64,000 nucleotides of DNA. Origin: Puniceicoccales bacterium (lineage in GTDB: Bacteria > Verrucomicrobiota > Verrucomicrobiia > Opitutales > UBA953). Under the pieces are notes generated by a model. That model saw only the letters and a list, made by a program, of their open reading frames with translations. It made no database searches and had not been told where the DNA came from. The translations under genes and the position numbers were made by a program. The stretch lies in the NCBI GenBank assembly GCA_031256995.1, contig JAIRPL010000047.1:62001-126000 (forward strand), read 5' to 3'. This document shows positions 34,422-55,334 of this stretch, one piece after another (the first letter of the stretch is position 1; each line of letters opens with the position of its first letter).

Positions 34422-34460
34422 GACACGTTTCCTCCAATCATCCCCGCGAAAAAACATCCG

Positions 34461-35456: not shown

Positions 35457-35812
35457 AATTTATCGCGTTTTTTTGGAGCAGTTGCCGATGCGAAAACCGT
35501 CACCAATGCAACGAATCCCCGCCCATGTCAGAACAGAATGTGAAAGGCGGGCGGGAAAGGCGAAATCCGCATTTCTGGTTTTGCGTTTCTGGTTTTCCCC
35601 GTCATTTGTGGAGACGCCGGTGGAAGGCCGGTGGAGAGGTGGAAAAAGCCGCCGTGCGCAAGGCAGCAGAGATCCGGCAGACTTCCTAAAAACACGGCGT
35701 GAAATGCGACATGCGACGCGACGCAAGTTTCCAACTCCACCTCCACGTCAATCAAACCCGCCCGCCGTGCCATCCCGAAACTCCTGGCACACATAAAGCC
35801 GCCGCCTTTCAT
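35457..35812. other. Intergenic stretch, no gene seen
   Basis: 356 bases between the GT8 gene and ATPase copy A. No convincing frame on either strand. It contains a short direct repeat of TTTCTGGTTTT near 35572-35596. The sequence shared with ATPase copy B begins at about 35798, inside the right end of this stretch. Confidence 0.5.
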
Positions 35813-37377
35813 TCAGCAGCCGAGGACGTGGATGGAATCCACGGTCTTCCAATAAATGCGCTGCTCCCAAGGCAGTTTCTTCTCAGGGGAACGACGATCA
35901 AAAATGACAAGATAACAGGGGGAATCAGGCGCAACCGTCTCACGGTAATGACGAACCTGCAAAAGACCCTGCGACTCAACACGTTCAAGCGTCTGATAGT
36001 CGCGCAACAACTTGATCTCCAAAATGTAGCGGGAACCCTCGTACTCAACGCACAAATCAAGACGCCCGCGCCCGGCGGCATACTCCCGGTCTATGCGGCC
36101 GCCTCCGTTCGTGATCCGCTGTAAAAACGCCATGAGAAGCAAATGCGGAAAGGCCTCCGTGTAATCCGATGTCCGCTCCCATATCTCGGAGTGTTCACGC
36201 CAGAAATTCTGAAATTCCCGAAGCAACTGATCCATGTCAAGACGCCCTTCTGCCGTCTTCCAACGAAAGAATGGCTTGGGAATGGCATATTGCGAAGAAT
36301 GGGTCATTTGACGCGCAAGGACCTCCCGATAGATCGGATTGGCGATCTGGACTTCTCCATCGAATATCTCAACCAAGCCCAGATCTTTGCACAATTGATA
36401 ACCGGGGCTGTCCAGCATTGACTGATCACTCGCCCCGGACAAGAGAGTCTCCATCACCTTGCGCACTTCCGGTTTTTCCAGCCGGTATGCAAGGGCGTCA
36501 AGATGTGTCTCGCGCGCGGAAACCATCTGCTCGCGGGCCTCCAGCAAATGGGACAGCGTGACTGTCTCCGAACTCGTCTCCCCTAGGACGCGCAGCGTGG
36601 CACGCATAAACAGATTGTTCACAATCCAAGGCTGGCCGCGAGATTGGGAATAAACATAATCCAAGGCCTCCGACGTGATTTGCTGCCCGGTCTCCAATGT
36701 GCGCTGCGCAAAAAGACGCGAGATCGAATCTCGCGAAAAATTGCCAATCACGGCGGAATCCGCCTTGATGTTAAAGGGTGAGCCGGGATTGGGGGAAACG
36801 CCTCCTTTCGCGTCCGTTATATAGTCCTTCAAATCGCGCATCCCGACCAACGCGATCGAGACAGGAAACCGGCCTATCCCACGGGTGGAAAAACCGCCGC
36901 GCAATTGGCGCAAAAAACTTATCATGCTCTCGCCGGCAAGAACGTCCACCTCGTCAAAAAGAACAACCAGGGGCTTGGGAGAAACCAGGACCGCCCACTC
37001 CGTGAGCGACAAACTCAGCATGCTCGCAGCCCCGGAGACGGGGATGCCAGGCGCGGGAAAACCGGCCTTCAAGGCACCCTCGCGAATCGCCTCGCAGGCG
37101 GCGGGCATCGCGCGCTCCAAATCCAGCCCCTGGCAGCGCTCCAAGGTCACATAACACGCGACAGCCTCCCCGCCGGCGTTGATCTCACGCATCCATGTCT
37201 GCAAAAACGTCGTCTTCCCCGTCTGGCGCGGCGCATGAAGCACCCAATAGAGCTTGTCGCGCACATAACGTCCCAGTTGCGCGCCCTGCAAACGCTCCTG
37301 CGGCGGAAGCATGTAGTGATCCGCGGGATCACACGGACCGGTCGTGTTAAAAAAACGAAGATGTCGGCGTGTCATAT
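35798..37377 (-). repeat. Direct repeat A (ATPase copy A unit)
   Basis: About 1.58 kb nearly identical to 46668-48250, same orientation. The match starts with GCCGCCGCCTT before the stop codon and ends at the ATG; sequences beyond both ends are unrelated. Only one internal block of ~195 bases differs strongly. The two copies bracket about 9.3 kb of glycan genes. Confidence 0.85.
35813..37375 (-). CDS. AAA-like ATPase with C-terminal PD-(D/E)xK domain, copy A
   Basis: 520 residues. Walker A APRQTGKTTFL at 48-58, Walker B LVVLFDEVD near 134-142, an arginine-finger-like RDSISRLFAQRT and a helical lid. The C-terminal part has D440 ... E453-x-K455 (RLDLC ... ILEIKLL), the catalytic pattern of PD-(D/E)xK nucleases. 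Such AAA/nuclease fusions are common multi-copy genes in anaerobes; function is not established. It is nearly identical to copy B (46683-48248) except for a divergent block at residues ~306-369 (36268-36460). No transposase is attached. Confidence 0.85.
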   Translation of the reverse strand: MTRRHLRFFNTTGPCDPADHYMLPPQERLQGAQLGRYVRDKLYWVLHAPRQTGKTTFLQTWMREINAGGEAVACYVTLERCQGLDLERAMPAACEAIREGALKAGFPAPGIPVSGAASMLSLSLTEWAVLVSPKPLVVLFDEVDVLAGESMISFLRQLRGGFSTRGIGRFPVSIALVGMRDLKDYITDAKGGVSPNPGSPFNIKADSAVIGNFSRDSISRLFAQRTLETGQQITSEALDYVYSQSRGQPWIVNNLFMRATLRVLGETSSETVTLSHLLEAREQMVSARETHLDALAYRLEKPEVRKVMETLLSGASDQSMLDSPGYQLCKDLGLVEIFDGEVQIANPIYREVLARQMTHSSQYAIPKPFFRWKTAEGRLDMDQLLREFQNFWREHSEIWERTSDYTEAFPHLLLMAFLQRITNGGGRIDREYAAGRGRLDLCVEYEGSRYILEIKLLRDYQTLERVESQGLLQVRHYRETVAPDSPCYLVIFDRRSPEKKLPWEQRIYWKTVDSIHVLGC

Positions 37378-37472
37378 GAATATTTCCTCTTTTTCACAAA
37401 GGACACCGATCCCCAAAAAAACGCTTGGAAGACAAGCTGGAAAGAAATTCTTCGTGCGGGCGTCCCTGATCG

Positions 37473-38906
37473 CGGCATTTCTGACTCTCATTTTCATCCT
37501 GTCAACAAATTTCCACTATCCCCAAGGCGGGACATGGGGTGTTTCAGGATTCATTCATCCATTTTTATTCGAGGAAAGCATCCTCTTTTGCAAATCAGAC
37601 ACACGAATGGTGAAACTGTAAATCAGGCGAAAGCTCCAAAATGGAAGGTGGAGTTTCGTCAAAAGGCGATAACAACCATAATAAGGCCTCCAAAAAACCT
37701 TGCGCAAAGGCACCTTGCGCAAGGGCAGAAGCCCCGCCCTTTGGAGACGATGAAAAAATCCACGCGCCAGCGAATAGTCCAATGTTGAAAACACCAGACG
37801 CCGGAAAACAGAATAACTGATGGCACAAAGCCTATGTTCCAGAAAAATCCATTGCGCGCTCGCCTTTGAAAAACCAGCCTGAAATTCGACCAATTTTTCA
37901 AGCACAACCAGATAACTCGAAACCCGTCTTTGAATATGCCCCGGATCCGTCCGGGTCATCGTGGAATTCTCCCGCTGAAAATAATGATACCCGGCAAAGC
38001 GTGTGAAATACCCCGTTTTTGCAAGGCAAAGCACGCGGGAGGTGAAATCCTCGTCCTCATGGAGAATTCCCTCGATGAATCTCAGTTTTCCAGATTCCAG
38101 AAAACTCCGCTTGTAGACATATCCCCAAACCACTGGAGAAAAGTAGTTGTCCGCGAGAATATCCGCGACGAAAACTTTTTTCCCGGCCGCATATGCAAGG
38201 GGAGCGGCGATTTCCACGCCCGTGGAAAGATGCCTGACATGCGAGAATCCAAGAAGATCCACGCCCTCGGAAGACAGAACATTCTCGAAAAATGAAAAGG
38301 CCCTGGCATCAAACCAATCATCCGCATCGAGAAAGACCACATACTCGCCCGTGGCACGATCCAAACCCGCATTCCTCGCGGCGGACAGACCTCGATTGGG
38401 TTGGTGAATAACCTGCGCCCAAGCGTGCCTTCGCGCAAAATCGTCACAAATTTGTCCACTGGAATCGGTCGAGCCGTCATCCACAAGGATCAGCTCCATG
38501 TCACCATGAAAATCCTCCTGCCTCAGAACAGATTCAATGGCGCGCGGCAAGAAATCCTCGACGTTAAAAACAGGGATGATAACACTATACTTGGACATGA
38601 GCAAAAAAACGCCGAAGCGGATATGATCTTAAGACTTGATCTTGAATTTGGAAATGATGCAAACCCGTTGCGCTGGCTTTCCTCGTGAAAGAAACTCTCC
38701 CGGCATTCCGCAGAAGCGGTGGCGTCAAAATTGCAAAACTGGCTTCATGGACTTTCCAAGTCCCTGCCGTTGTCTCTTTCTTGGGAAAATTGACTTCCGC
38801 CCCATTTTCCTTAAAAACTCTTGCGATTTCCAAACGGCGGCAAAGCTGGCATGGAGAATTCGGGCTTCATCCTCAAACACCCCACCCGCGTGTTCACGGT
38901 TTCCCC
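37473..38906 (-). repeat. Tandem repeat unit 1 (GT2 gene plus flank)
   Basis: This unit and 38913-40281 are adjacent diverged copies. Both begin with CGGCATTTCTGA, run through a GT2 gene and a conserved ~300-base upstream flank, and end with CGCGTGTTCACGGTT. Flank and gene are both conserved, so the duplication took in the whole gene with its leader. Confidence 0.8.
37555..38598 (-). CDS. GT2 family glycosyltransferase, tandem paralogue 1
   Basis: 347 residues from MSKYSVIIPVFN. GT-A landmarks: YSVIIPVFNVEDFLPRAIES, LVDDGSTDSSGQICDDFA, LSAARNAGLDRATG, and DxD in FLDADDWFDA. The C-terminal part (HYFQRENSTMTR, SSYLVVLEKLVEFQAGFSKA, FSTLDYSLARGFFHRL) is shared almost word for word with the gene upstream at 38942-39973. 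Differences concentrate in residues ~30-180, the likely sugar- and acceptor-binding part. A duplicated PLRK segment near the C-terminus makes it slightly longer than its twin. Confidence 0.88.
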   Translation of the reverse strand: MSKYSVIIPVFNVEDFLPRAIESVLRQEDFHGDMELILVDDGSTDSSGQICDDFARRHAWAQVIHQPNRGLSAARNAGLDRATGEYVVFLDADDWFDARAFSFFENVLSSEGVDLLGFSHVRHLSTGVEIAAPLAYAAGKKVFVADILADNYFSPVVWGYVYKRSFLESGKLRFIEGILHEDEDFTSRVLCLAKTGYFTRFAGYHYFQRENSTMTRTDPGHIQRRVSSYLVVLEKLVEFQAGFSKASAQWIFLEHRLCAISYSVFRRLVFSTLDYSLARGFFHRLQRAGLLPLRKVPLRKVFWRPYYGCYRLLTKLHLPFWSFRLIYSFTIRVSDLQKRMLSSNKNG

Positions 38907-38941
38907 TGGTCACGGCATTTCTGATTCTCGTTTTCACCCTG
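38599..38941. other. Inter-GT2 flank with a coding-like remnant
   Basis: 343 bases between the two GT2 paralogues, repeated at 39974-40281. On the minus strand a 70-codon frame (38725-38937) begins 4 bases after the upstream GT2 stop and contains FHASF/LHASF-AAVWKSQEFLRKMG. The second copy keeps the same frame: of the differences I compared in this part, three are synonymous, one changes an amino acid and one turns a codon into a stop. This looks like the 3' end of an old gene rather than random sequence, but I do not recognise it. Confidence 0.35.
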
Positions 38942-40281
38942 TCAACGAATTCCCGCCGCCTTATCCGAGGAAACCATCCTCTTTCGAAAATCAGACGTGC
39001 GAACGATGAAACGGTAAATCAGGCGAAGGCTCCAAAAGGGAAGGTGGAGTTTCGTCAAAAGGCGATAAAAACCATAACGAGGCTCCCAAAAACCCTTGCG
39101 CAAGGGCAAATGCCCCGCCCTTTTGAGACGATGAAAAAATCCACGCGCCAGCGAATAGTCCAATGTCGAAAACACCAGATGCCGGAAAACATAATAACTG
39201 ATCTCACGAAGCCTGTGTTCGAGATGGATCCATTGCGCGCTCGCCTTTGAAAAACCGGCCTGAAATTCGACCAATTTTTCAAGCACAACCAGATAACTCG
39301 AAATCCGTCTTTGGATATGCCCTGGATCCATCCGGGTCATCGTGGAATTCTCCCGTTGAAAATAATGATACGCGGCAAAGCGCGTGAAACACCCCGTTTT
39401 CGCAAGACAAAGCACGCGGGAGATGAAATCCACGTCCTCATGGAAAATTCCCTCGACAAACCTCAATCCATTGGCTTCCAAAAACTCCCTTTTGTAAACA
39501 TACAGGCATACGGATGGAAAAAAATAGTTGGACGCTATGACGTCAGCCAGGGGGACCGCCTTCTCCAAGGCATATGGCAGAAAAGACGGCACCTCCCTCC
39601 CGTCGGAAAAATGCCGCACATGTGAAAACCCCAGAATATCGGCATCCCTCAAGGCCGGATTTTTTTCAAAATCACAAAAGGTGTGACTGTCAAACCAATC
39701 ATCCCCATCAAGAAAAACCACGTAATCCCCGGTCGCCCGGTCCAATCCGGCATTTCGCGCGATGGATGGGCCTCCGTTCTTCTGATGAACAACATGCACA
39801 CACGCATGCCGTTTTGCGAAATCATCGCAAATCATCCCGCTCGCATCCGTCGAGCCGTCATCCACAAGGATCAACTCCATGTCACCATCCTCCTGACTCA
39901 GAACAGACTTGATGGCGCGCGGCAAGAAATCCGCGACATTAAAAACAGGGATGATAACACTATACTTGGACATACGCGAAAAAACGCCGAAGCGGATATG
40001 GTCTTAAGAGTTGATCCTGAATTTGGAAATGATGCACGCCCGTTGCGGTGACTTTCTTCGTGAAATGAACTCACCCGGCATTCAGCGGAAGCGGTGGCGT
40101 AAAAATTGCAAAACCGGCTTCATGGACTTTCCAAGTCCCTGCCGTTGTCTCTTTCTTGGGAAAATTGACTTCCGCCCCATTTTCCTCAAAAACTCTTGCG
40201 ATTTCCAAACGGCGGCAAAGCTGGCATGGAAAATTCGAGCTTCATCCTCAAACACCCCACCCGCGTGTTCACGGTTGCCCC
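38913..40281 (-). repeat. Tandem repeat unit 2 (GT2 gene plus flank)
   Basis: Second copy of the unit at 37473-38906, same orientation, directly adjacent. Its right end runs into the last codons of the polyol-phosphate transferase gene (stop at 40269), which marks the duplication boundary. Confidence 0.8.
38942..39973 (-). CDS. GT2 family glycosyltransferase, tandem paralogue 2
   Basis: 343 residues, start MSKYSVIIPVFN identical to its neighbour. Landmarks: LVDDGSTDASGMICDDFA, PSIARNAGLDRATG and DxD in FLDGDDWFDS. The C-terminal half is nearly the same as paralogue 1, while residues ~95-180 differ (e.g. PALRDADILGFSHV, SFLPYALEKAVPLADVI). The pair probably adds related sugars to the same glycan, or one is a spare under diversification. 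Confidence 0.88.
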   Translation of the reverse strand: MSKYSVIIPVFNVADFLPRAIKSVLSQEDGDMELILVDDGSTDASGMICDDFAKRHACVHVVHQKNGGPSIARNAGLDRATGDYVVFLDGDDWFDSHTFCDFEKNPALRDADILGFSHVRHFSDGREVPSFLPYALEKAVPLADVIASNYFFPSVCLYVYKREFLEANGLRFVEGIFHEDVDFISRVLCLAKTGCFTRFAAYHYFQRENSTMTRMDPGHIQRRISSYLVVLEKLVEFQAGFSKASAQWIHLEHRLREISYYVFRHLVFSTLDYSLARGFFHRLKRAGHLPLRKGFWEPRYGFYRLLTKLHLPFWSLRLIYRFIVRTSDFRKRMVSSDKAAGIR

Positions 40282-41705
40282 TTGAGCTTTCTCTTCAACG
40301 TGGACAGGAAAACAAAAAGGCGAAAGCAACAACGCACATAGAAACGCAGGACAGGAATGGGCGCGTGGATCCAAAATAAAAAGCGAAAAAGGCAATGAAT
40401 CCCCCTGCCTTTGTTGGCCACCTTCCCCCAGGTCTTTCGCATTTTTTCGACGGCAAACCGGGTGCTCCGGGCATCCGCCGAGTTGCTAAAAAGATTCCAA
40501 AGAAATGTGAAATCCAAAACCGGTTCATTGTAGATTTGGCTCCCGTCTTCCCAATTCCCGTATATCGCAACACTCTCCGCGACACGCTGGCTTGCGCCAT
40601 CGGGAAAATTTTCAAGCGCATGGACAATCTCGGGGACCGCGCTCTCGGGAGGGGTTGAAAAATGGAATTGCAAAATCTTCCCACGCCACTCCCGGGACTC
40701 TTCCGACTCTGACTCAATGGCGGAAAACGATTCCTCCAACTCCCCAAAGCTCTTGCAAATTTTCCCAGCGGCAAAGACTTCCGGACTGATAACACAAGCC
40801 GTCTGCAACTCCTCATAGGATTCCTTGTCATCAATGAATATCGAGATGGGTTTTCCAGTGAAAAGAAAATCGGTGGCGATGGAGGAATAGTCCGAGATGA
40901 TCATGTCCATCTCCCTGAATAATGGGTAAATATCCGAATCACACTGAATGATCCGCAACCGCCCGGAAGTCATTTCCGTCGCCAACTCATTCCGCAAATA
41001 CTCCTCAAACAACGTGTCAAGCGGATGCAATTTCAGAAATAAAACCGCCCCAATCTGACGAAGCTTTTCGCAAATCTTCCGGACAACATCCGCCCTGGGA
41101 GAAAGCAACTCAGGATGAGCGCGGAACGAACGGAATGTGGGGGCGTAAAGGACCGCCTTCCCCTTTCGCTCCGCAAGCTGACGGCGCGCGACTTCGTCCA
41201 CACCAATCCAGTCCAGCGGCGAGCAAGCCCCGGCCTTTACCACCCGGTTTCGCGGAAGGTTCGCCACAAACAAGCGCCTTGGCCTGAACATCTTCGCAAA
41301 AATCAAGGTTAGCGCCGGGGAAGTGGCCACCAGCAGGTCATCGCCAACAAAATGTCGGATCGAGTTCGGCGTGAAATGCTTTACAAGCAACCCAGCAGCC
41401 TTGACGCCGACACCGTGCCAAAGCTGGCAAATGCGTGTCCGCGCAGGCAGGATGATCTCCCCGGTCGTACGCCCTGGATTGGAGTCAACGACGAGCCAGT
41501 CGGCCTCCTCAATCCGCTTCCCCGCCGCCTCGGAACCCAAGACAAACGCCCGCGGCTCGGGAAGCAATCCATTGATGCGCGCCGCCAATGCCTCGTCCTT
41601 GACAAGAATGGAGCCATCCACCCCGGGACAATTCAGCGAATCAATGAAGAAATACTTCGTGTTGTCAGCAAATCGGAAATCCCTTCCGGCAATCACAATT
41701 TTCAT
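40269..41705 (-). CDS. CDP-polyol phosphotransferase, TagF/TarL-like
   Basis: 478 residues from MKIVIAGRDF. It has the pattern of the CDP-glycerol glycerophosphotransferase family: WHGVGVKAAG (His near residue 93), VLYAPTFRSFRAHPE, LFLKLHPLD and SDYSSIATDFLFTGKPI. These enzymes polymerise or transfer glycerol- or ribitol-phosphate from CDP-polyol at the cytosolic membrane face. The start overlaps the stop of the cytidylyltransferase gene upstream (ATGA), so donor synthesis and transfer look coupled. A Cys/Phe-rich hydrophobic segment lies near the C-terminus. Which polyol is used is not visible. Confidence 0.83.
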   Translation of the reverse strand: MKIVIAGRDFRFADNTKYFFIDSLNCPGVDGSILVKDEALAARINGLLPEPRAFVLGSEAAGKRIEEADWLVVDSNPGRTTGEIILPARTRICQLWHGVGVKAAGLLVKHFTPNSIRHFVGDDLLVATSPALTLIFAKMFRPRRLFVANLPRNRVVKAGACSPLDWIGVDEVARRQLAERKGKAVLYAPTFRSFRAHPELLSPRADVVRKICEKLRQIGAVLFLKLHPLDTLFEEYLRNELATEMTSGRLRIIQCDSDIYPLFREMDMIISDYSSIATDFLFTGKPISIFIDDKESYEELQTACVISPEVFAAGKICKSFGELEESFSAIESESEESREWRGKILQFHFSTPPESAVPEIVHALENFPDGASQRVAESVAIYGNWEDGSQIYNEPVLDFTFLWNLFSNSADARSTRFAVEKMRKTWGKVANKGRGIHCLFRFLFWIHAPIPVLRFYVRCCFRLFVFLSTLKRKLKGQP

Positions 41706-42424
41706 TTCTGATCGCCTCCTTCCAAGTCGCTTTCTGCAATGCGCACCCAAGTCTCCAAAAGATGGATGTCGTCGTTGTAAGTCAGTTTCATATTTGATTC
41801 CTCTCCCTTGACAAGATGAATTTTCGCGGAGGGAATCCGCCTGAGAATTTCGGCGCATATGTCCCCCCCCTCCCGCCCCTCCGACTTCAAGATTCCAAGC
41901 AGCTTGGAAATCAAGGAGACACGAAAGGCCTGCGGCGACTGCCCGCGCTGCAATAAATTTCTGTCCGGATAATCGGTGACAAGTGTCTTCGCACTATTCA
42001 CACCCAGAAACGAATCCACGGCCGGGACGGCGACATTGACGGCCTCGCATTCGCGCAAGGCCGCCACCACATCCGAGATGATCCGCTGCGAAACCCGGGG
42101 GCGGGCCGCGTCGTGAAATAAAAGCGAGGCGCCGGGATGGGATTCGTAGGCATGATAGGCCGCAAGCGTGGAGTCGAAGCGTTCCTTTCCCCCAAGAAGA
42201 ATCTTGCAACTCTTGCGGCATGGATTCCGGGCCAAAATTTCCTCCATGCGCCTCCGTTGGGCGACGGAAATGACGACGGCGATCTCATCAATGCCGGGGT
42301 GGCGGTCAAAGGCGGCGATGGCGCGCTCGACGACCGTTTTTCCCGCCAAATCCCAAAACTGTTTGGGGAGGGCGCCACCGGCGCGGTTCCCGCCTCCTCC
42401 CGCCAAGATCACGGCAATATTCAT
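41702..42424 (-). CDS. IspD/TarI-family cytidylyltransferase
   Basis: 240 residues from MNIAVILAGGGG. Nucleotidyl-transfer loop GGGGNRAGGALPKQF (residues ~8-22), FHDAARPRVS (~103-112) and a late LTYNDDIHLLE. The family includes IspD (methylerythritol 4-phosphate) and TarI/Bcs1-type ribitol-5-phosphate enzymes. Coupling to a TagF/TarL-like transferase by a 4-base overlap favours activation of a polyol phosphate for a surface polymer. A housekeeping IspD role cannot be excluded. No reductase partner (TarJ) is seen. Confidence 0.75.
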   Translation of the reverse strand: MNIAVILAGGGGNRAGGALPKQFWDLAGKTVVERAIAAFDRHPGIDEIAVVISVAQRRRMEEILARNPCRKSCKILLGGKERFDSTLAAYHAYESHPGASLLFHDAARPRVSQRIISDVVAALRECEAVNVAVPAVDSFLGVNSAKTLVTDYPDRNLLQRGQSPQAFRVSLISKLLGILKSEGREGGDICAEILRRIPSAKIHLVKGEESNMKLTYNDDIHLLETWVRIAESDLEGGDQK

Positions 42425-42529
42425 CTCACAAGATTCCTGTGTTTTTTGATTCCACACCATTGCAAAAACCGGGAAATCCGCGCGCGCAATCCATCTCAGC
42501 GCACTCCTCCAAAAAGCAAACGTGCTCCG

Positions 42530-42655
42530 TCAAAGAATTTCCTTCAACGTCTGCGCGACGATGCTGTCCAAACACTGGCGCAACCAGGGTTCCACTCCAT
42601 AAATGGGAACGACAATGGAGACCTTGGGACGTTGCAAAACATTCTTCACATTCAT
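42530..42655 (-). pseudogene. Truncated GT2 glycosyltransferase (N-terminal fragment)
   Basis: 41 codons: MNVKNVLQRPKVSIVVPIYG then VEPWLRQCLDSIVAQTLKE, the exact start of a GT2 domain, ending at a stop where VNDGS should follow. The ATG overlaps the stop of the flippase gene (ATGA). No later GT2 motifs are found in any frame before the next gene, so this is a deletion remnant. Confidence 0.8.
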
Positions 42656-44070
42656 TTTCTGGAAAGTTGTTTTCTTGCGGAAAGGAGGGAGAAAGAAAGG
42701 GCGTTTGAGACATCCCGGAAGGAAAACTGGAAATCCCGGATCACCCAGAGCGGCCAACGCCAGCTATTGTAGGAAAGCTGCGCGCAAAGGGTGGCCAATG
42801 GGAAGGAAAGAAGGCCGATTTCCGTGAAATTAATGAAGACAAGGCAAAGAAGGATATTGGCCGTTCCCGTCAAAAATGTGGTGGGGACAAACGGGATGAC
42901 ATTCTTGGCGGTTATCAATGTCGCGCATTTTCCATGGATGGCCTCCGTGAAATAAACGCCCGCGTAAAGGAGGACAACCGCCGTCCCCGGCAAAAGCACC
43001 TTGTCCCGCCCCACAAGATGCAACAGCGCGTCGCCCTTCCAAATGACAGCGCCCGTGCCGACCGCCAGAATCGCAATGCTGATGAAAACCGCGCGCAGGA
43101 ACTCCCAGCGAAGGGATTCCATCTTCCCACTGACAAGAAGGCTCACATAACGAGGGTAGGTCAGGTTGAAATAGGAACTGGAGAATATGTTCAGAAAATT
43201 AAAAACCCTCAGGGTGATCAGTATCTTCGTGAAATCATTCGGAAAATAATGAAGCCCCACGAAACCCGTCGCCTGATAAATCAAAAAAACCCCGATGGAA
43301 TTCATGCCTGATTTTTTCGCGTTGTGCCAGATGATCGGAAGGACGGAAGGCTTCTCCCCGGATTGGGCCGCCGCGCGCAGCCTGGATTTTAACGGCGCAT
43401 CAAAATAAACGCGGACGACGACAAAACGCATCAGCAGGGACAGACCAAGCGAGACACAAACCGTCCCCAGCAGGCCGTGCCCGAAATAGAGAACCAGGAA
43501 ATTGAAAACAATCCCCATGACGCCCGTGGCAATGCCGACCTTGTTTGCCAGCGCAATGGCCCCCCTTCCTCCGATGAAAACATCCAGATAACGAAAATAG
43601 ATGGCAAGAACCGTGGAGAAAATGAACAACACCCACGTCGGGAGAATCTCGCTGAAAACAAACCCCTCAATCTTCGTCCCATTCTCATAAAGATAATAGG
43701 TTCCGAAGATGGACAGGAGCAGAAAGACCGCGGCGGCGATGATGGCATAAACTTTTTTGCAGGCACGGAACAACGCGTGCAGCAGGACGTAGTTCGGCTC
43801 CTTCCCGGCCTCCTGCTCCGAGATGCCTTCCCTCAGGATCTCCCTCGCCCCGCTGAATGCGCAAGTTATGGCGCGCGATGCATTTGGCGTGAAACCAAAA
43901 TCAAGAAGCCCGATGCTGGAGGTTATCAAGGTGAAGAGAAACCAGACATCGACATGCGTCTTGGGAAGATATTTCCAAACAAAGGGCGCGACAAAGAAAA
44001 ACGAGCCTAATTTGAAGAAATAATTGGCATAGGCCCAAAAATATTGCTTCCTGCCTATTTTTATTTCCAT
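42652..44070 (-). CDS. wzx: Polysaccharide flippase (Wzx/MATE-like)
   Basis: 472 residues with about 12 hydrophobic segments, starting MEIKIGRKQYFWAYANYFFKL. The conserved early loop GLLDFGFTPNASRAI is the mark of oligosaccharide flippases of the Wzx/RfbX group. It would move lipid-linked oligosaccharide across the inner membrane. It lies amid glycosyltransferases, which supports the role; a Wzy polymerase is not recognised in the window, though the large membrane proteins at 49.5-53.6 kb could be considered. Confidence 0.82.
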   Translation of the reverse strand: MEIKIGRKQYFWAYANYFFKLGSFFFVAPFVWKYLPKTHVDVWFLFTLITSSIGLLDFGFTPNASRAITCAFSGAREILREGISEQEAGKEPNYVLLHALFRACKKVYAIIAAAVFLLLSIFGTYYLYENGTKIEGFVFSEILPTWVLFIFSTVLAIYFRYLDVFIGGRGAIALANKVGIATGVMGIVFNFLVLYFGHGLLGTVCVSLGLSLLMRFVVVRVYFDAPLKSRLRAAAQSGEKPSVLPIIWHNAKKSGMNSIGVFLIYQATGFVGLHYFPNDFTKILITLRVFNFLNIFSSSYFNLTYPRYVSLLVSGKMESLRWEFLRAVFISIAILAVGTGAVIWKGDALLHLVGRDKVLLPGTAVVLLYAGVYFTEAIHGKCATLITAKNVIPFVPTTFLTGTANILLCLVFINFTEIGLLSFPLATLCAQLSYNSWRWPLWVIRDFQFSFRDVSNALSFSLLSARKQLSRK

Positions 44071-44155
44071 GGAAACCTGTGATGGGACAATCCGGAGAAG
44101 AATGATGGCCTGTCACAAAAAATCCAAATCGCGAAACCATCAAGCCGTCATCCCC

Positions 44156-45100
44156 TCATTTTTTTCTTTTGAGAAAACGCCGCGCTTTGTTTGCCACGGC
44201 AAGCCAGAAACTTTTTGTTTTCGACGCCGGCGAATCCGGCGCGTGCCTCCAGATCCGGATCAATCCACGCCAACCGAATGAACGCAACGCGTCGTTAAAA
44301 TGGGAATTTTGCCGGACCTGCCAGTGACGCCGATTTTCCGCAAGCGCCAGTCCCCGGCAGTCGCCCGACGACTTCTCCAGAAGCTGGTTCACCAGGTTGT
44401 AAAGAAAGAAATCGCTGTCCAAGGAATCCTCGTAGAGTCCGGGACGCCTCACGTTGGTATAATTCATCCCGTGCCAGCGATAGTTCAGCAATGGAAGATT
44501 CAGGTTGCCGATTTTGTTCTGCCGCGAGGCGAGCCGGATGACGAACGACTTGTCGCTTGCCAGACAACCCGGCATTGAGGGAAATCCGCCAATCTCCAGC
44601 GCGGACTTTCGCGAGAACGCGAAATCGGAGAGCGCCTGCCCCCTGAAAAACCTGAATTGAAAATAGACATATTCATCGACGGTTTCCAATTCTTTTCCGG
44701 GGCAGGAGTATGCAATCGCAAGTTTTTCCCTGCCGAACTCCTTTCGCAGGAACCTGACCACATCCAGGCCCTCGCCCCGCCCTTTCAAGAATGCATCCAG
44801 TTCGGCAAGGCATTCCGGCGCAAGAATGTCATCGTCGCAAAGCAGGACGATATAGTCGCCCCTGGAATGCTCGATGCCTTTGTTCCAATTGGGAGCCGGG
44901 GCAAGCTGGGTTTCATTGTGGAAAAGCCGGACGCGCGGTTTCTCCGCCCACGTGGAAAGATCGCCGTCCGCCTTGTTGTCCACGACGACAATCTCATAAT
45001 CTTGGAAATTTTGCGCGAGCGCGCTTTCGATCGCCTCCTGGAAATAGCGTGTCTTGACGACAGGGATCAGAATCGTGAAACGTGGATTGTCAGATGCCAT
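44156..45100 (-). CDS. GT2 family glycosyltransferase
   Basis: 314 residues from MASDNPRFTILIPV. It differs from the others: RFTILIPVVKTRYFQEAIESAL, VVVDNKADGDLSTW, PAPNWNKGIEHSRGDYIVLLCDDDIL with the DxD as DDDI near residue 90, which is typical of the rhamnosyl/galactosyl-type GT2 group. A basic tail (ARRFLKRKK) ends the protein. The start was set at the internal ATG; the upstream extension is not conserved. Confidence 0.86.
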   Translation of the reverse strand: MASDNPRFTILIPVVKTRYFQEAIESALAQNFQDYEIVVVDNKADGDLSTWAEKPRVRLFHNETQLAPAPNWNKGIEHSRGDYIVLLCDDDILAPECLAELDAFLKGRGEGLDVVRFLRKEFGREKLAIAYSCPGKELETVDEYVYFQFRFFRGQALSDFAFSRKSALEIGGFPSMPGCLASDKSFVIRLASRQNKIGNLNLPLLNYRWHGMNYTNVRRPGLYEDSLDSDFFLYNLVNQLLEKSSGDCRGLALAENRRHWQVRQNSHFNDALRSFGWRGLIRIWRHAPDSPASKTKSFWLAVANKARRFLKRKK

Positions 45101-45180
45101 GAAAGAAACAAGGAATATGTTGGTGGAATCCTTCTCCAAAATCCCGCCAACGATGCGGAAAGACAATGGAAAAGCGTCAA

Positions 45181-46575
45181 TTATTTGATTTGTGAAGCAA
45201 GGGCCTTCCCGCGAAGGACGCAATCATCCGTCCAGAAGTATTTCCACTGCGCAAACCGGCCCGCCATGAGAAGCGACGCCGTCCTGAGCGATTCCGGAGG
45301 TGGAAGGCTCCAATCGACCAAGGGATGCGTGTCCATAGGCTCACGGGAAAGCCCGTGGGGCTGGAGCGCATCCCAGATTGCCTCCAACCGCGCGGAGGTG
45401 CCGGAAAGAAAGACAACATTGGCAAATGGAATGCGGGTGAGTTTGACGGAATCCGGATTGCCGGCCAGCGAGCTGGAAATCGAGGCGGGCAGAATTCCCA
45501 TCACATCCAGTTCGGCGACAACACGCCGGCCAATTTCCAAATCGCCAAGGGGAAGTTTTTTTTGCGGCTGGTGGTAAATCTCCACCTGGACGCCGCCATG
45601 TCCGTCCGGGGCATTGGCCGGGGAAAGCTTCTCGATGAAATGAATGCGCGTGGAAAGAAAATCCTCGTTGTAAACGTAGAGCCAGTGTTCCGGACGCCTC
45701 GTGGGGGCGCGCAATTCGATATCGGCAAGAACGAGGCTGGAGCAAAGAAGCCCCCGGGCCGCCTCTCGCATCCCGGAAGTGCTTTGCACGCAGATCTCCA
45801 CGAATTCCGTGAGTGGAATTGTCGAGACAAGGCGGCTGTAACGCAAGGTCTCGCCGGATTGTGTGCAGACCTCCTTTTTTGCAAGATCAATGGCCGTGGC
45901 TCGAGCGCCAAGGCGTACATTGGCACCCTGGGCCAGAATCGTGGAAAACGATTGGTAACCGCCGGTCTTTGGATAACGAATCCTGTCGATATAATGCAGA
46001 TTGCGCGGAATGTCGCTTTCCGCGCCGGCGCGAACGTCCTCAAGCCTTGGGCGGTGCACCCGCCCGCCAACCCAATCACATGACATCGCGGATGGGGGGA
46101 CGGTCCAATATTTTCTGGTATAGGGCGCGGAAAAATTCTCCGCGAAAGTTTTTCCAAGGGAAGTCTCGAGCCACTGCTGATAATTTTCAGGTGCGTCCAA
46201 CGGCGGCAGGGCATGCGCCTGCTCAAGGGATGCGACACAGGCGGAGCGAAGGGGTTCCGGTACTTGGGCAAGATTCACCTGCGCCGGATGACGCACCCAA
46301 TTGCCGTGGAAAAAATTGCCGACATTGACAGGGATCTCCCAAAACTCATCCCGCGTTGACCGCGCGAAAAGAGAGCGCACATGATCATGTTTTGTAAAGG
46401 AGACATGCGGCCCGTTATCCCACGTGAACCCATTGTGTCTTCTGGAGGCGAGAAGCCCGAACAAATGCGGCTCCTTCTCCAAAATCAGGCAGTTTTCATG
46501 ACCCAAATGGTAACTTGCGGAAAGACCCGACAGGCCTCCGCCAAGAATCAGATTCTCAACAAAGAAATCACTCAT
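45181..46575 (-). CDS. FAD-dependent oxidoreductase, UDP-galactopyranose mutase/PPOX-like
   Basis: 464 residues from MSDFFVENLILGG. FAD-binding LILGGGLSGLSASYHLG (residues ~9-25), the second-strand Glu in LILEKE, and FTWDNGPHVSF, a pattern of UDP-galactopyranose mutases and related amine oxidase-fold enzymes in polysaccharide loci. The late segment SLLMAGRFAQWKYFWTDDCVLRGK matches the C-terminal FAD motif. Substrate is not certain: a nucleotide sugar or lipid-linked sugar is likely from context. Confidence 0.75.
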   Translation of the reverse strand: MSDFFVENLILGGGLSGLSASYHLGHENCLILEKEPHLFGLLASRRHNGFTWDNGPHVSFTKHDHVRSLFARSTRDEFWEIPVNVGNFFHGNWVRHPAQVNLAQVPEPLRSACVASLEQAHALPPLDAPENYQQWLETSLGKTFAENFSAPYTRKYWTVPPSAMSCDWVGGRVHRPRLEDVRAGAESDIPRNLHYIDRIRYPKTGGYQSFSTILAQGANVRLGARATAIDLAKKEVCTQSGETLRYSRLVSTIPLTEFVEICVQSTSGMREAARGLLCSSLVLADIELRAPTRRPEHWLYVYNEDFLSTRIHFIEKLSPANAPDGHGGVQVEIYHQPQKKLPLGDLEIGRRVVAELDVMGILPASISSSLAGNPDSVKLTRIPFANVVFLSGTSARLEAIWDALQPHGLSREPMDTHPLVDWSLPPPESLRTASLLMAGRFAQWKYFWTDDCVLRGKALASQIK

Positions 46576-49022: not shown

Positions 49023-49478
49023 TCAAAGATTCCCGCGTTTTCCAAGAACGTACGCATCCGCCAATTTTCCGGATATCGCCTCCCCGTTCATGTCCAGCTG
49101 GATCAAGGCACCCTTGCCAATCCGGTAATGTGGCGGGATGCCTTTCGCATCCAAGAGGATGCGCGTTCCACCCTCGCTCCGGGAAAACTTCCCTGCCACG
49201 GTGAAATCACCTTCCGCGCGTCCCAAATAACGATAACGGAGCACATAGGTGGAATCCGCGTTCAGGGTTATTGTCACATCGATCCCTGTGCCGCTTGCCG
49301 AGGGAATTTCCCCGGAATAGACACCGGCCCAATCCGAGCCGTTCTTGGGATCATGGATACTGGCGTCCGTGGAATCCGCCTTTCGACAATCCAGACATCC
49401 CGTTGCCAACAACATGAATGGCAACAACAATGAGGATGCGCAAAACAAGGAAAATATCGTGGTTCTTTTCATATTCAT
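49023..49478 (-). CDS. NlpE N-terminal-like lipoprotein
   Basis: 151 residues. Signal peptide with LLLPFMLLATGC, so Cys28 would be lipidated; the next residues give a CLDC pair at the mature N-terminus. The body has the NlpE (copper homeostasis) beta-barrel pattern: WAGVYSGEIPSASGTGIDVTITLNADSTYVLRY-like strands and LIQLDMNGEAISGKLADAYVL. In NlpE the loop normally carries CADC; here it is SASG, so the metal/disulfide site is moved or lost. Probably an outer-membrane surface sensor or unknown lipoprotein. Confidence 0.75.
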   Translation of the reverse strand: MNMKRTTIFSLFCASSLLLPFMLLATGCLDCRKADSTDASIHDPKNGSDWAGVYSGEIPSASGTGIDVTITLNADSTYVLRYRYLGRAEGDFTVAGKFSRSEGGTRILLDAKGIPPHYRIGKGALIQLDMNGEAISGKLADAYVLGKRGNL

Positions 49479-49510: not shown

Positions 49511-51453
49511 TCATGCCGTGCCACAGGGTTCATGCCGGCCAAAACCAAGCCTTCGCCCGATCTTTTCAAACACAGGCCGGGCATACAAGAAGAGCGTCCG
49601 AATCAAAAGGAAATAACCGAGCCAGAACGCGGGAACGGCGTAGCGATCGAGAGAAAACAGGCAAAAGGCATGCATCGCCAGAAATGAGAAAATCAGCAAG
49701 GAGCCAAACACGCCGAAGTAATCACGGCGCGCCACGCCGATTCCAAAGGAGAATGGCAATAGAATCAAAATGGCAAAATGAATCCCCTTGTAGTGCCACA
49801 GCAGCGAAAACAAAAAAGAACCGATCGGACTACACACCGCGCGCGCCTCCCAGGAATCCGTGTATTTCGGGTCCCTGATGCGTGTTTTCGCGTGACGCAG
49901 GTAAATCGTACCATCCACAAGGCCGATTGTCTCCTCCCCTCCTAATGCAAAGACAGAAAAGGTCCTCAGTGCCCGAGCAAGGCAATACATCGGATTTGAT
50001 TTCCAAGCCTCGCCAAGGATAGCCAACCTTACCTCCGGATCTTGCGGAAGGTGAAGAAAATCTAAAACCGCCGATTGCGGAACGCCTCCTTTTCGTGGAT
50101 CTTCAAAGAATTTCCCATGCCTTTCCCTAAGTTCAAGTTCGCGATACGCTTCGGAAACCTTGGGATCCTTGTAGTATCCCTCGGGAACCGCCAGATTTCT
50201 AACCACACCCCATTCCGTTTGAAACCCGGAGCACTTCATTGACTCTGAAAAATAGGAGAACATGAAAATCATGGAGAAGAATATCAGCGCGGCGGCAGTG
50301 ACACATCGGCGATTGGAAAGAAAACCCGGATCGTCCTTCAAGAATCGAACGGGAAGAAAGGAAAAAACAGGACGGGCCAGAAAAAATATTCCCAGCGCCA
50401 CAAAAACAGGCATGAAATTCTGTTTGATGTAGAAGGCAAAAACGCAGGAGAAAACGAGGAAGACAGCATTGGCGGGAGAAAAGCTTTCCGACGAGAAGAA
50501 ACGCTCCAGCGCGAACACAACCAATGCAAGCGCGCAAAACAGGGCGCATTCATTGCCGACGATATGCTGACAGGCAACAAGCGTTGGGGAAAAGGCAAGA
50601 AGACATAGGGCCAAGCAATATTGCCTTCCCCTGTCCGCGAAGGATTTTCCCATAAAGAACACGGCCAAAAGGATGAAAATGCCATTCGCCAGCAAGGTGG
50701 ACGCCGCATTCCCCCCAACCAACTCCCGCATGAATGCCAGGACGAACGAATACATGAACGGCCTGAAAAAATTCCAATTCCGCCAATCCAGATCCTGCAG
50801 GACAAAAGAATTTTTAACCCAAGCCGCTCCGTCCGATCCGAGTTCAACCGGGAAAAGGCATCCGGCCAGCAGAAGAAAAACGGAAAAAATAAAAAACGCA
50901 AACCGCGCCTCTTTCAGGATTCCGTTTTCACGAAAAGCAAGCCGCCAAAAAGCCAGGAAAAAGGCGAAGAGAAGAGAAGAGAAGAGAAGAGAAGAGAAGA
51001 GCGCCACCCCTTCTCCGGGAAATCGGAAATTTGGAGGGTCAAAGACGAGCCGGCGCCCCCAACACAAATTCCATCCTCCAATTTGACTGGCCCTGAACTC
51101 CCGGCCTTTGCCGCGCCAGCCAGATCCTCGGAGCGCAAATCAAAGTAGAACGGAAGCAAACCTATTTTTCGATAAGTCCGAAAACCCTTTATTTTCACAT
51201 CATCGAAAATATTCAACCTCAATCTCAAATTCTTTTCCCTTGGGATGGAAAATTTCTTCAGCTCGAATCCATTCACCGCCCCGATCCTCAGCATGGAATG
51301 CTCGCCCTGCCCTATTTTTCCATCCTCCGAGATGCGCGAAAGCATGATCTCCAGATTCTCGCAGGGCGTCCCCTCAATTTCAAAAAAACGGCTTTCCCGC
51401 GAAAGAAAAAAGGCGGCCAGAAACGCAAGCACCGTGATGCACGCAATTTTCAT
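49511..51453 (-). pseudogene. Large GT-C-like membrane protein, frame broken at CTCTT repeat (phase OFF)
   Basis: Twin of the intact gene at 51613-53562. The 5' part (from ATG 51453, SD-like GGGAGG just upstream; an ATG at 51540 is also in frame) and the 3' part (ending at 49511) lie in different frames, and the break is at a (CTCTT)7 tract. With 7 units translation ends at 50914 after a short changed tail; with 6 or 9 units the full ~650-residue product would be restored. No other defect is seen in the rest of the frame, so I read this as a switched-off phase-variable gene rather than a decayed one. Confidence 0.8.
50967..51001 (-). repeat. (CTCTT)7 pentanucleotide repeat
   Basis: Seven perfect units (AAGAG on the plus strand) within the coding sequence of the OFF copy. 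35 bases, not a multiple of three relative to the in-frame 45 bases of the twin. Confidence 0.95.
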
Positions 51454-51612
51454 CCCCCTCCCTAGAATCCGTTTGTGGGAACTCAAAGATCCCCGGATCC
51501 TCCTGAGCGGCAACAGCGAAGAATAAGTATTCTGAGTCATGCGAAAAGTGGTGGATCAAAAGACGTCGTGAATCACAAAAAATTATCGCCATTTAAAGAA
51601 AACCTTTGCTCT

Positions 51613-53562
51613 TCACGGCGGGCCACAGGGTTCATGCCGGCCCAAGCCAAGTCTTCGCCCGATCTTTTCAAACACAGGCCGGGCATACAAGAAGAGCGTC
51701 CGAATCAAAAGGAAATAACCGAGCCAGAACGCGGGAACGGCGTAGCGATCGTAAGAAAACAGACAAAAGGCATGCATCGCCAGGAATGAGAAAATCAGCA
51801 AGGAGCCAAACGCGCAGAAGTAATCACGGCGCACCACGCCGATCCCAAAGGAGAATGGCAATAAAATCAAAATGGCAAAATGAATCCCTTTGTAGTGCCA
51901 CAGCAGCGAACAGTAAAAAGCTCCGATCGGGTTGCTCGCCGTGCGCACCTGCCAGGAATCCGCGAACTCCAACGTCATGACGCGGGTTTTATGCCTCGCA
52001 AGAAAAAGCACTTCGGAAACAGACGACTTCACAGTTACATCGCCAAATGCAAAGGCGGGGAAAGCTTTCAATGCCCGATCCAGACAATATGCCGGATTCT
52101 GTTTCCAAGCCTCGGTGAGAATATCATTTTGCCCGCTGTCAGGCGGACGGTTGAGAAAATCAAAGACCGCAGAATTGGGGATGCCTCCTTTTCGTGGATC
52201 TTCAAAGAATTTCCCATGCCTTTCCCTAAGTTCAAGTTCGCGATACGCATCGGAAACCTTGGGATCCTTGTAGTATCCCTCGGGAACCGCCAGATTTCTA
52301 ACCACACCCCATTCCGTTTGAAACCCGGAGCGCTTCATTGACTCGGAAAAATAGGAGAACATGAAAATCATGGAGAAGAATATCAGCGCGGCGGCAGTGA
52401 CACACCGGCGATTGGAAAGAAAACCCGGATCATCCTTCAAGAATCGAACGGGAAGAAAGGAAAAAACAGGACGGGCCAGAAAAAATATTCCCAGCGCCAC
52501 AAAAACAGGCATGAAATTCTGTTTGATATAGAAGGCAAAAACGCAGGAGAAAACGAGGAAGACAGCATTGGCGGGAGAAAAGCTTTCCGACGAGAAGAAA
52601 CGCTCCAGCGCGAACACAACCAACGCAAGCGCGCAAAACAGGGCACATTCATTGGCGACCAGATGCTGAAAGGCAACAAGCGTTGGGGAAAAGGCAAGAA
52701 GACATAGGGCCAGGCAATATTGCCTTCCCCTGTCCGCGAAAGATTTTCCCAGAAAGAATACGGCCAAAAGGATGAAAATGCCATTCGCCAGCAAGGTGGA
52801 CGCCGCGTTCCCCCCAGCCAACTCCCACATGGATGCCAGGACAAACGAATACATGAACGGCCTGAAAAAATTCCAATTTTGCCAATCCAGATTCTGCAGG
52901 ACAAAAGAATTTCCAACCCAATACTTCCCGTCCCCTCCGAGGGTAACCGGGAAAAGGCATCCGGCCAGCAGAAGAAAAACGGAAAAAATAAAAAACGGAA
53001 ACCGCGCCTCTTTCAGGATTCCGTTTTCACGAAAAGCAAGCCGCCAAAAAGTCAGGAAAAAGGCGAAGAGAAGAGAAGAGAAGAGAAGAGAAGAGAAGAG
53101 AAGAGAAGAGCGCCACCCTTTCTCCGGGAAATCGGAAATTTGTAGGGTCAAAGACGAGCCGTCACCCCCAACACAAATCCCATCCTCCAATTTGACCGGC
53201 CCTGAACTCCCGGCCTTTACCGCGCCAGCCAGATCCTCGGAGCGCAAATCAAAGTAGAACGGAAGCAAACCTATTTTTCGATAAGTCCGAAAACCTTTTA
53301 TTTTCACATCATCCCAAATATACACCCTCAACCTCAAATTCTTTTCCCGTGGGATGGAAAATTTCTTCAGCTCGAATCCATTCACCGTCCCGATCCTCAG
53401 CATGGAAAACTCACCCTGCCCTATTTTTCCATCCTCCGAGATGCGCGAAAGGCTGATCTCCAGATTCTCGCACGGCGTTCCCTCAATTTCAAAAAAACGG
53501 CTTTCCCGCGAAAGAAAAAAGGCGGCCAAAAACGCAAGCACCGTGATGCACGCAATTTTCAT
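51613..53562 (-). CDS. Large GT-C-like integral membrane protein, phase-variable (ON)
   Basis: 649 residues from ATG 53562, which has AAGGAGG just upstream; the frame is open to ATG 53649. One membrane helix (MKIACITVLAFLAAFFL), a ~120-residue extracytoplasmic domain, then about ten membrane helices. The first of these begins with SSLLF repeated three times, encoded by nine CTCTT units (residues ~151-166). GGDGKYW in the first loop after that, and SYDRYAVPAFW near the end, resemble GT-C glycosyltransferases that use lipid-linked sugars. A Wzy-type polymerase or other glycan membrane protein is the alternative. The glycan island context supports a surface-sugar role. Confidence 0.72.
   Translation of the reverse strand: MKIACITVLAFLAAFFLSRESRFFEIEGTPCENLEISLSRISEDGKIGQGEFSMLRIGTVNGFELKKFSIPREKNLRLRVYIWDDVKIKGFRTYRKIGLLPFYFDLRSEDLAGAVKAGSSGPVKLEDGICVGGDGSSLTLQISDFPEKGWRSSLLFSSLLFSSLLFAFFLTFWRLAFRENGILKEARFPFFIFSVFLLLAGCLFPVTLGGDGKYWVGNSFVLQNLDWQNWNFFRPFMYSFVLASMWELAGGNAASTLLANGIFILLAVFFLGKSFADRGRQYCLALCLLAFSPTLVAFQHLVANECALFCALALVVFALERFFSSESFSPANAVFLVFSCVFAFYIKQNFMPVFVALGIFFLARPVFSFLPVRFLKDDPGFLSNRRCVTAAALIFFSMIFMFSYFSESMKRSGFQTEWGVVRNLAVPEGYYKDPKVSDAYRELELRERHGKFFEDPRKGGIPNSAVFDFLNRPPDSGQNDILTEAWKQNPAYCLDRALKAFPAFAFGDVTVKSSVSEVLFLARHKTRVMTLEFADSWQVRTASNPIGAFYCSLLWHYKGIHFAILILLPFSFGIGVVRRDYFCAFGSLLIFSFLAMHAFCLFSYDRYAVPAFWLGYFLLIRTLFLYARPVFEKIGRRLGLGRHEPCGPP
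53066..53110 (-). repeat. (CTCTT)9 pentanucleotide repeat
   Basis: Nine perfect units (AAGAG on plus), 45 bases, read in frame as S-S-L-L-F three times. All three frames of CTCTT encode only Ser, Leu and Phe, so any length keeps a hydrophobic stretch but only every third length keeps the gene open. Confidence 0.95.
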
Positions 53563-53808: not shown

Positions 53809-54981
53809 TCAAACCAGCGAAAATTCGGAGGAGAATTCGTTGATCTGGCGCCGGGTGAAGGAGCGGATGTCCTCCGAAGACGCCTGGGAATTGGAGGAGA
53901 AATCCCCCCCGGCCCGCCCACAACAATGCAAATACCAGGCGACGGTCTTCTCGATGGTTTGTTGAAAATCCCAAGTGGGTTTCCAACGAAGAAGATGCCT
54001 GGCCTTGTCTATGGCAAGGTTAAGAAGGCCCGCCTCGTGCGGGGCATTTTGCGCGGATGCGAGCGACAGCGCCCCGGGCCAATGGCGAAGAATCCCACGG
54101 ACGAGAGTCTCCACGTCGCGATTGGAATCAAGCGACGGACCGAAGTTGAAGGCACCCTCAAGGGCACAAGGACGATGCGACGAAGGACGCGCGCCAGCGG
54201 AACCGGAGGCGCACCCAGGCTGCAGAACTTCCCAAAGACGCTGTGCAAGAAGAAGATACGCAGACAGAGGCTCAAGGACATGCTGCCAGGGACGCGTTGA
54301 GCGCGGATTGCGAACGCAAATGGGTTCGCCCTTCGCAAGGGCACGGATGGCGTCAGGCACGATGCGGTCGGACGCCCAATCCCCTCCTCCGAGCACATTT
54401 CCCGCGCGTGCGGTTGCAACGGCCACAGGAGAGTCCGCCCCCCAGAAAGAACGTCGCCAGGAGGCCGTCACAAGCTCGGCGCAACCCTTGCTGGCGCTGT
54501 AGGGATCATGGCCGCCCATGGGATCGTCCTCCCTGTAGCCGTGCATCCACTCCCGGTTCTCATAACATTTGTCCGTCGTGACAACCACGACCGCGCAGCG
54601 ATGTCCGGAGCGGCGGACGGCATCAAGCAAATGGACGGTTCCAAGAACATTTGTGGAGAACGTCTCGACAGGAATCTCGTAGGACAGGCGCACGAGGGGC
54701 TGCGCGGCCAGATGGAAGACAATCCGCGGCTTGCAACGCCCAATGGCATCGGCAAGGGCGCCGGCATCACGCACATCCCCGCGCAAATCAGCATGGATCC
54801 GCGACGCAAGCCCAAGCTGGTCAAAAAGGGACGGAGTGGTCGGCGGCGGCAAGGCAAAGCCGGTGACCCGCGCGCCAAGCAGGAGCAGCCATTCGCAAAG
54901 CCAGGCTCCCTTGAACCCGGTGTGCCCGGTCACAAAAACATCGCAATCCCTGTAGACGGAAAACGGCGGCGCATGCGCCAC
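53809..54981 (-). CDS. rfbG: CDP-glucose 4,6-dehydratase
   Basis: 390 residues from GTG 54981, which has GGAGG four bases upstream; longer in-frame starts (ATG 55098) add non-conserved residues. Short-chain dehydrogenase fold: VFVTGHTGFKGAWLCEWL (NAD site), FHLAAQPLVRLSYEIP, VTTDKCYENREW, catalytic YSASK, and ARAGNVLGGGDWASDRIVPD. It converts CDP-glucose to CDP-4-keto-6-deoxyglucose, the branch point to 3,6-dideoxyhexoses. The partner cytidylyltransferase (rfbF) is not adjacent. An extra Ala/Gly/Ser-rich insertion lies at about residues 262-280. It is the first gene of the island in transcription order. Confidence 0.9.
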   Translation of the reverse strand: MAHAPPFSVYRDCDVFVTGHTGFKGAWLCEWLLLLGARVTGFALPPPTTPSLFDQLGLASRIHADLRGDVRDAGALADAIGRCKPRIVFHLAAQPLVRLSYEIPVETFSTNVLGTVHLLDAVRRSGHRCAVVVVTTDKCYENREWMHGYREDDPMGGHDPYSASKGCAELVTASWRRSFWGADSPVAVATARAGNVLGGGDWASDRIVPDAIRALAKGEPICVRNPRSTRPWQHVLEPLSAYLLLAQRLWEVLQPGCASGSAGARPSSHRPCALEGAFNFGPSLDSNRDVETLVRGILRHWPGALSLASAQNAPHEAGLLNLAIDKARHLLRWKPTWDFQQTIEKTVAWYLHCCGRAGGDFSSNSQASSEDIRSFTRRQINEFSSEFSLV

Positions 54982-55334
54982 GCCCCCCTCCGCACCCAAG
55001 CTACCGCCATCAACGGAGCGCCGTGGCGCCTGTCCGTTTTGCCCATGAAGACTCGCCCCAGCGTCGCTGACGCGGCCTTGAAAAATTTGTTTTTCCATTG
55101 GAAATGGATGCGAGGAGGCTGTTTCGGAACCACGTCGATGGCAAGACATTATGCCGGATGAAAGCCGTGGCACGGGGCGGGCGGACGTAACCTGGACCCC
55201 ATGCGCGCGCTCCATTAATTTTTATCCTAAAAACGCGAAATGCTTCCCTCGGCCCGATTTGGGGCATCAGCCCTGTTCACGCGAAAGAAGCGAAAAGGAT
55301 TGTCGCAGGATCTCACAATGACGGGGCAAAAACC

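Follow-up and report, generated by a model that had tools for sequence, protein, structure and literature searches.

The lic, lgt and pgl genes of Haemophilus and Neisseria are SSR-switched glycosyltransferase genes in which the repeat lies inside the glycan gene, and the tracts of SSR-switched glycosyltransferases are mostly homopolymers or tetranucleotides located in cytoplasmic transferases. In the capsule and LOS genes of Campylobacter, a repeat in the glycan gene results in random frame switching (PMC8437040). In the opa genes of Neisseria, CTCTT coding repeats are located in the signal peptide, and the genes are switched by slipped-strand changes in copy number (PMC3899988, PMC13183285). 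The gtr operons of Salmonella and its phages encode a phase-variable membrane transferase that decorates a surface polysaccharide, such as the O-antigen glucosyltransferase GtrC (PMC2909390).

The window, i.e., the whole stretch of 64,000 nucleotides that was analysed, contains two tandem genes encoding PMT_2-like membrane proteins, designated A and B, each of which carries a CTCTT tract:

51613..53562, minus strand: gene A (ON), a 649-aa membrane protein according to its translation, transmembrane profile and a weak PMT_2 match; start codon ATG at 53562, preceded by AAGGAGGGGG
53065..53110, minus strand: the (CTCTT)9 tract of gene A, 9.2 copies, 100% perfect, in frame
49511..51453, minus strand: gene B (OFF), the twin of gene A; start codon ATG at 51453, stop at 50914 after 179 aa
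50966..51001, minus strand: the (CTCTT)7 tract of gene B, 7.2 copies, 100% perfect, two units fewer than in gene A, a difference that shifts the frame away from the GT-C part

This pair shares with opa the CTCTT unit, the encoding of LFSSL/SSLLF within a hydrophobic segment, ON and OFF states set by the number of units modulo 3, and the occurrence of several paralogues with hypervariable exposed regions. It differs from opa in that the protein is unrelated, the tract is located between two domains, the OFF product retains a complete N-terminal domain, the copies are in tandem whereas opa genes are dispersed, and the lineage is another one. No homology to the Opa beta-barrel was found for the protein, which is polytopic and helical with a PMT_2-like core. 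The GT-C locus works like opa but is no relative of it. Compared with lic, lgt, pgl and the Campylobacter genes, the differences are the pentanucleotide unit, the GT-C-like gene and the tandem pair of alleles. The gtr operons resemble the GT-C pair in having a variable membrane transferase for a surface polysaccharide; however, gtr switching depends on Dam methylation of the promoter and involves no repeat, and GtrA/GtrB partners were not identified for the GT-C pair.

Akkermansia probably belongs to the same phylum as the source bacterium. The cps1 capsule locus of Akkermansia muciniphila is phase-variable by an inverton, and slipped-strand events at mononucleotide runs have also been suggested (PMC13343947). 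A phase-variable surface polysaccharide would be common to cps1 and the GT-C pair, whereas cps1 varies through an invertible element and the GT-C pair would vary through a pentanucleotide repeat. The original prediction knew of no described example in this type of bacterium, which is too broad as regards phase variation, already described in Akkermansia (PMC13343947), but appears to hold for the pentanucleotide version. No pentanucleotide slipped-strand case in Verrucomicrobiota was found in the open-access papers searched. The mechanism is of a known kind, that of opa, and the host lineage, the gene family and the position of the tract are new. Repeat-driven phase variation has been studied mainly in a few pathogens; the present locus would add a glycan gene from an uncultured lineage in which the switches described so far are DNA inversions.

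Both repeat search and alignment bore out the predicted tandem twin genes of ~2.1 kb with perfect CTCTT tracts of nine and seven units, and translation agreed that nine units give an open frame of 649 residues and that seven units put the twin out of frame. The ON copy had been described as downstream, which is wrong: both genes are on the minus strand, and the ON copy, A, is first in the order of transcription. The start codons of both genes have AGGAGG upstream. The alignment of A and B extends over ~2.09 kb and contains just three indels in all, namely 1 nt located 5' of the coding sequence, the 10-nt difference between the tracts, and an in-frame codon of 3 nt. Beyond the tract, the GT-C frame of gene B is open across 485 codons, up to the stop common to both copies (49511). 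The end-to-end alignment and these open codons agree with the earlier observation that the OFF twin has no further frame break. Several independent inactivating mutations in the OFF copy had been named as evidence that would speak against a switch, and none was found in B. When the frame was computed for different unit counts, genes A and B both had the full frame only at multiples of three.

The chance expectation for such tracts, as estimated with dinucleotide shuffles, was 0 matches. The tract encodes SSLLF repeats within a hydrophobic helix, and all of its serine codons are TCT, which accounts for 5.7% of the serine codons in the neighbouring genes. The joint codon odds for the tract, given its amino acids and the local codon usage, were ~6.5e-14, indicating that the repetitive DNA does not simply follow from the protein sequence. 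An exact search of the whole assembly for CTCTT identified three tracts in total, those of A and B and a third on another contig (C61); a reversed-pattern control was uninformative for this search, as the reversed unit, TTCTC, is CTCTT rotated. Other repeat types were surveyed in 431 kb (18% of the genome; G+C 61%), and no units of 4–9 nt with at least four copies were found in this sample besides the three CTCTT tracts. Poly-C runs returned by this survey were mostly located at contig ends and were discarded as assembly junk.

The assembly is a draft of 76 contigs that is 90% complete, and the poly-C junk at some contig ends marks it as imperfect, so that the repeat counts could in principle be an artefact of assembly or sequencing. 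We consider this highly improbable, as ordinary short reads would span both tracts (36 and 46 nt), flanking differences distinguish each copy, and the genome has three independent CTCTT tracts. The tracts are perfect repeats inside genes beyond chance expectation, the length of the unit is not divisible by three, and the OFF gene is otherwise intact; the perfect tracts, the frame states and the intact OFF copy support the slipped-strand ON/OFF architecture that had been proposed.

Comparison of A and B gave dN/dS values of 0.26 for the part 5' of the tract and 0.54 for the part 3' of the tract. Both halves of the OFF copy are under purifying selection, suggesting that B was switched off recently and probably reversibly, and that it was, until recently or intermittently, a working frame. 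Alternatively, B might be a decayed duplicate, a pseudogene frozen at seven units that is clean only because the duplication is recent or because A has converted it. Such a history would fit the stretches of very high identity that lie beside divergent ones, and the downstream dN/dS of 0.54 is not very low. However, 166 bases differ between A and B in the part after the tract, where B is free of stops and of a second frameshift over 485 codons, and random placement of the observed substitutions left the downstream frame stop-free in only 0.8% of trials (P about 0.008). The frame also stays open and in register through the divergent loop, and the sole frame break is located exactly at the hypermutable repeat. 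Decay of a duplicate is therefore very unlikely, although gene conversion between the twins could partially explain the stop-free frame of B.

Purifying selection on both halves is also compatible with a switch that splits the protein, in which seven units would yield the N-terminal domain alone (179 aa), an internal TTG or GTG would start independent translation of the GT-C core, and the repeat would toggle between fused and unfused forms, with neither in the third phase. Sequence motifs pointed to candidate starts for such a core:

51005..51067, minus strand: in the seven-unit copy, candidate start codons within the gene that open the GT-C frame

The TTG at 51067 follows GGAGG with a spacing of 7 nt and would give 518 aa, and the GTG at 51007 follows GGAGAAGGG and would give 498 aa. 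On the other hand, conserved protein sequence (KLEDGIC, FPEKGW) is encoded at these very positions, and the Shine-Dalgarno-like motifs may be incidental; moreover, TTG and GTG starts within a translated gene are usually weak. Domain splitting is thus considered quite unlikely.

The divergence between A and B is mosaic. Most blocks of 60 bases have 50–60 identical positions, and identity drops to 26–47 of 60 over about 250 bases:

51914..52161, minus strand: divergent segment of gene A, residues about 467–550, in a large predicted periplasmic loop
49812..50062, minus strand: matching divergent segment of gene B, located by alignment

This segment falls inside the predicted periplasmic loop of 157 residues (residues 404–560). 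In addition, the first 60 codons past the tract, which include the first loop of the core, have 13.5 nonsynonymous versus 1.5 synonymous changes. The twins differ chiefly in predicted periplasmic parts, which suggests two alleles with different specificities.

Hydrophobicity analysis of protein A indicated an N-terminal anchor, a periplasmic domain of ~130 residues (about residues 20–150), the helix encoded by the tract, and a polytopic core, with about 12 hydrophobic segments. The tract helix (residues 151–173) follows the periplasmic domain and precedes the GT-C core, and does not lie at the N-terminus of the protein. By hmmscan, the two copies matched PMT_2 with E values of 1e-4 and 3.5e-5 (24.5 and 22.9 bits, under the curated cut-off of 26.1), and a genome-wide profile search gave 28.1 and 27.2 bits, over the same cut-off. 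Comparison by hhalign with PMT_2 proteins of relatives gave a probability of 86.7%, versus 0.4% or less for the controls (a flippase, GT2 and a glycerophosphotransferase). The GT-C assignment of the original prediction, moderately supported by these scores on either side of the cut-off and by the hhalign result, is also in keeping with the topology predicted from hydrophobicity, which combines a multi-helix core, a large periplasmic loop and an acidic residue in the first of the periplasmic loops. In both proteins this residue is an Asp that comes after the first core helix (LGGDGKYW in A, LGSDGAAW in B), a position at which an acidic residue is retained in GT-C enzymes.

The genes around the pair were as follows:

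53809..55215, minus strand: CDP-glucose 4,6-dehydratase, adjoining the pair upstream (TIGR02622, 455 bits, cut-off 278)
49023..49478, minus strand: NlpE-like lipoprotein, adjoining the pair downstream (PF04170, 1.6e-18)
33396..45223, minus strand: polysaccharide genes (CDP-glycerol glycerophosphotransferase-like, several GT2, one GT8)
42652-44070, minus strand: Wzx-like flippase, within the polysaccharide genes

The best matches of the CDP-glucose 4,6-dehydratase were mostly from verrucomicrobial genomes, which makes Verrucomicrobiota the probable phylum of the source bacterium. The flippase and several transferases are located 5–20 kb from the pair. The polysaccharide region also contains two related AAA/PD-(D/E)XK proteins (window positions 35813-37375 and 46683-48254).

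The switched product might instead be some other polytopic membrane protein and not a glycosyltransferase. The Pfam match is borderline, the pair had no NCBIfam match, no PDB relative was found by sequence, and an AlphaFold2 model computed from the single sequence without an alignment had a pLDDT of 43.2, too poor to use. Nevertheless, PMT_2 was matched in both copies, the hhalign probability far exceeds that of the controls, and the GT-C-like topology, the Asp after the first core helix and the polysaccharide neighbours all point in the same direction, making a different function unlikely. The proteins of A and B are likely GT-C (PMT_2-like) glycosyltransferases.

We consider it probable that the pair forms a slipped-strand contingency locus, in which a single membrane GT-C glycosyltransferase is present as two alternative alleles; reversible switching, enzymatic activity and the glycan target are inferred from one assembly. 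Whenever either gene gained or lost CTCTT units, its GT-C part would move into or out of the reading frame that begins with the N-terminal anchor and periplasmic domain. Each gene would be ON only at multiples of three units; at present A (nine units) is ON and B (seven units) is OFF. Two such genes would allow four ON/OFF combinations. The GT-C enzymes probably act on the periplasmic side, where they would add a sugar linked to polyprenyl phosphate to a surface polysaccharide or protein, and switching between the alleles would swap or remove a decoration. If the twin enzymes differ in specificity, two alleles in a compact arrangement would suffice to switch between variants of a surface sugar, with possible consequences for phage resistance and host interaction. 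The contingency reading offers a precise prediction, namely unit counts modulo 3 at the two tracts.

The third CTCTT tract is located in the signal peptide of a lipoprotein gene elsewhere in the same genome:

G000:C61:19371-19400 (L017 about 7362-7405), minus strand: third CTCTT tract, six units, in a lipoprotein signal peptide
L017:6661-7467, minus strand: the lipoprotein gene with this tract

The hydrophobic core of this signal peptide is made up by the six units (MKKTFFSSLLFSS...LLLLCGC, a lipobox), a location that places the tract closer to the layout of Neisseria opa than that of the GT-C pair. At six units, the frame of the lipobox (LLLLCGC) is not in frame with the ATG of the gene. An alternative upstream TTG, which overlaps the stop of the preceding gene, is in frame, and the OFF call is therefore less certain for the lipoprotein than for gene B. 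With the GT-C pair and the lipoprotein, one pentanucleotide occurs in two unrelated envelope-type gene families of the same genome. A short remnant with a nearly identical start was observed just 3' of the lipoprotein gene (L017 about 6570-6650).

No homologues of the GT-C pair were found in 78 other genomes of the family, nor in 56 relatives, a 289-genome sample of the phylum, a GTDB contig scan or viral contigs. In the same genus, PMT_2-type genes commonly occur in tandem (runs at G008:C45:15717-18110 and G004:C74:29691-40122), and no pentanucleotide repeats were found beside them in the stretches read.

CTCTT tracts of at least five units were present in 5 of 388 phylum genomes and 4 of 373 order genomes, two samples that overlap and that both include the source genome. 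Several of these tracts lie close to, or within, the beginning of a coding sequence. The tracts of G239 and G508 had no obvious coding sequence around them, and G137:C1 (L072, L075, L078) has three near-identical, apparently non-coding tracts just upstream of a repeated transposase-like gene. In view of these non-coding tracts and the transposase-like context, a tract alone is no evidence of a switch.

Three more genomes of the phylum had similar tracts in envelope-type genes, usually out of frame. Coding repeats of CTCTT or its complement may represent a recurrent Opa-like contingency mechanism in the phylum that arose independently in unrelated envelope genes, a generalization that we advance tentatively and regard as somewhat less than an even prospect; the pattern across genomes is suggestive only. 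The cases behind it are the GT-C pair, the lipoprotein, a signal-peptide pair in another class of the phylum, and two out-of-frame genes in the same order, one with an N-terminal hydrophobic tract and one formyltransferase-like.

In the pair from the other class, two paralogous secreted proteins of G165 (L074, G165:C175; L077, G165:C177), the complement AAGAG precedes the hydrophobic core of the signal peptide; the copy with five units is open, and the copy with eight units plus AATCG is shut. On the minus strand of L129 (G517:C205), an ATG is followed by a hydrophobic stretch encoded by CTCTT, and the long frame behind it is shut. L130:1400-1640 (G559:C17) has a gene that weakly matches a formyltransferase (E 0.039) and is divided into two frames by (AAGAG)7; this gene is possibly a switched sugar-modifying gene.
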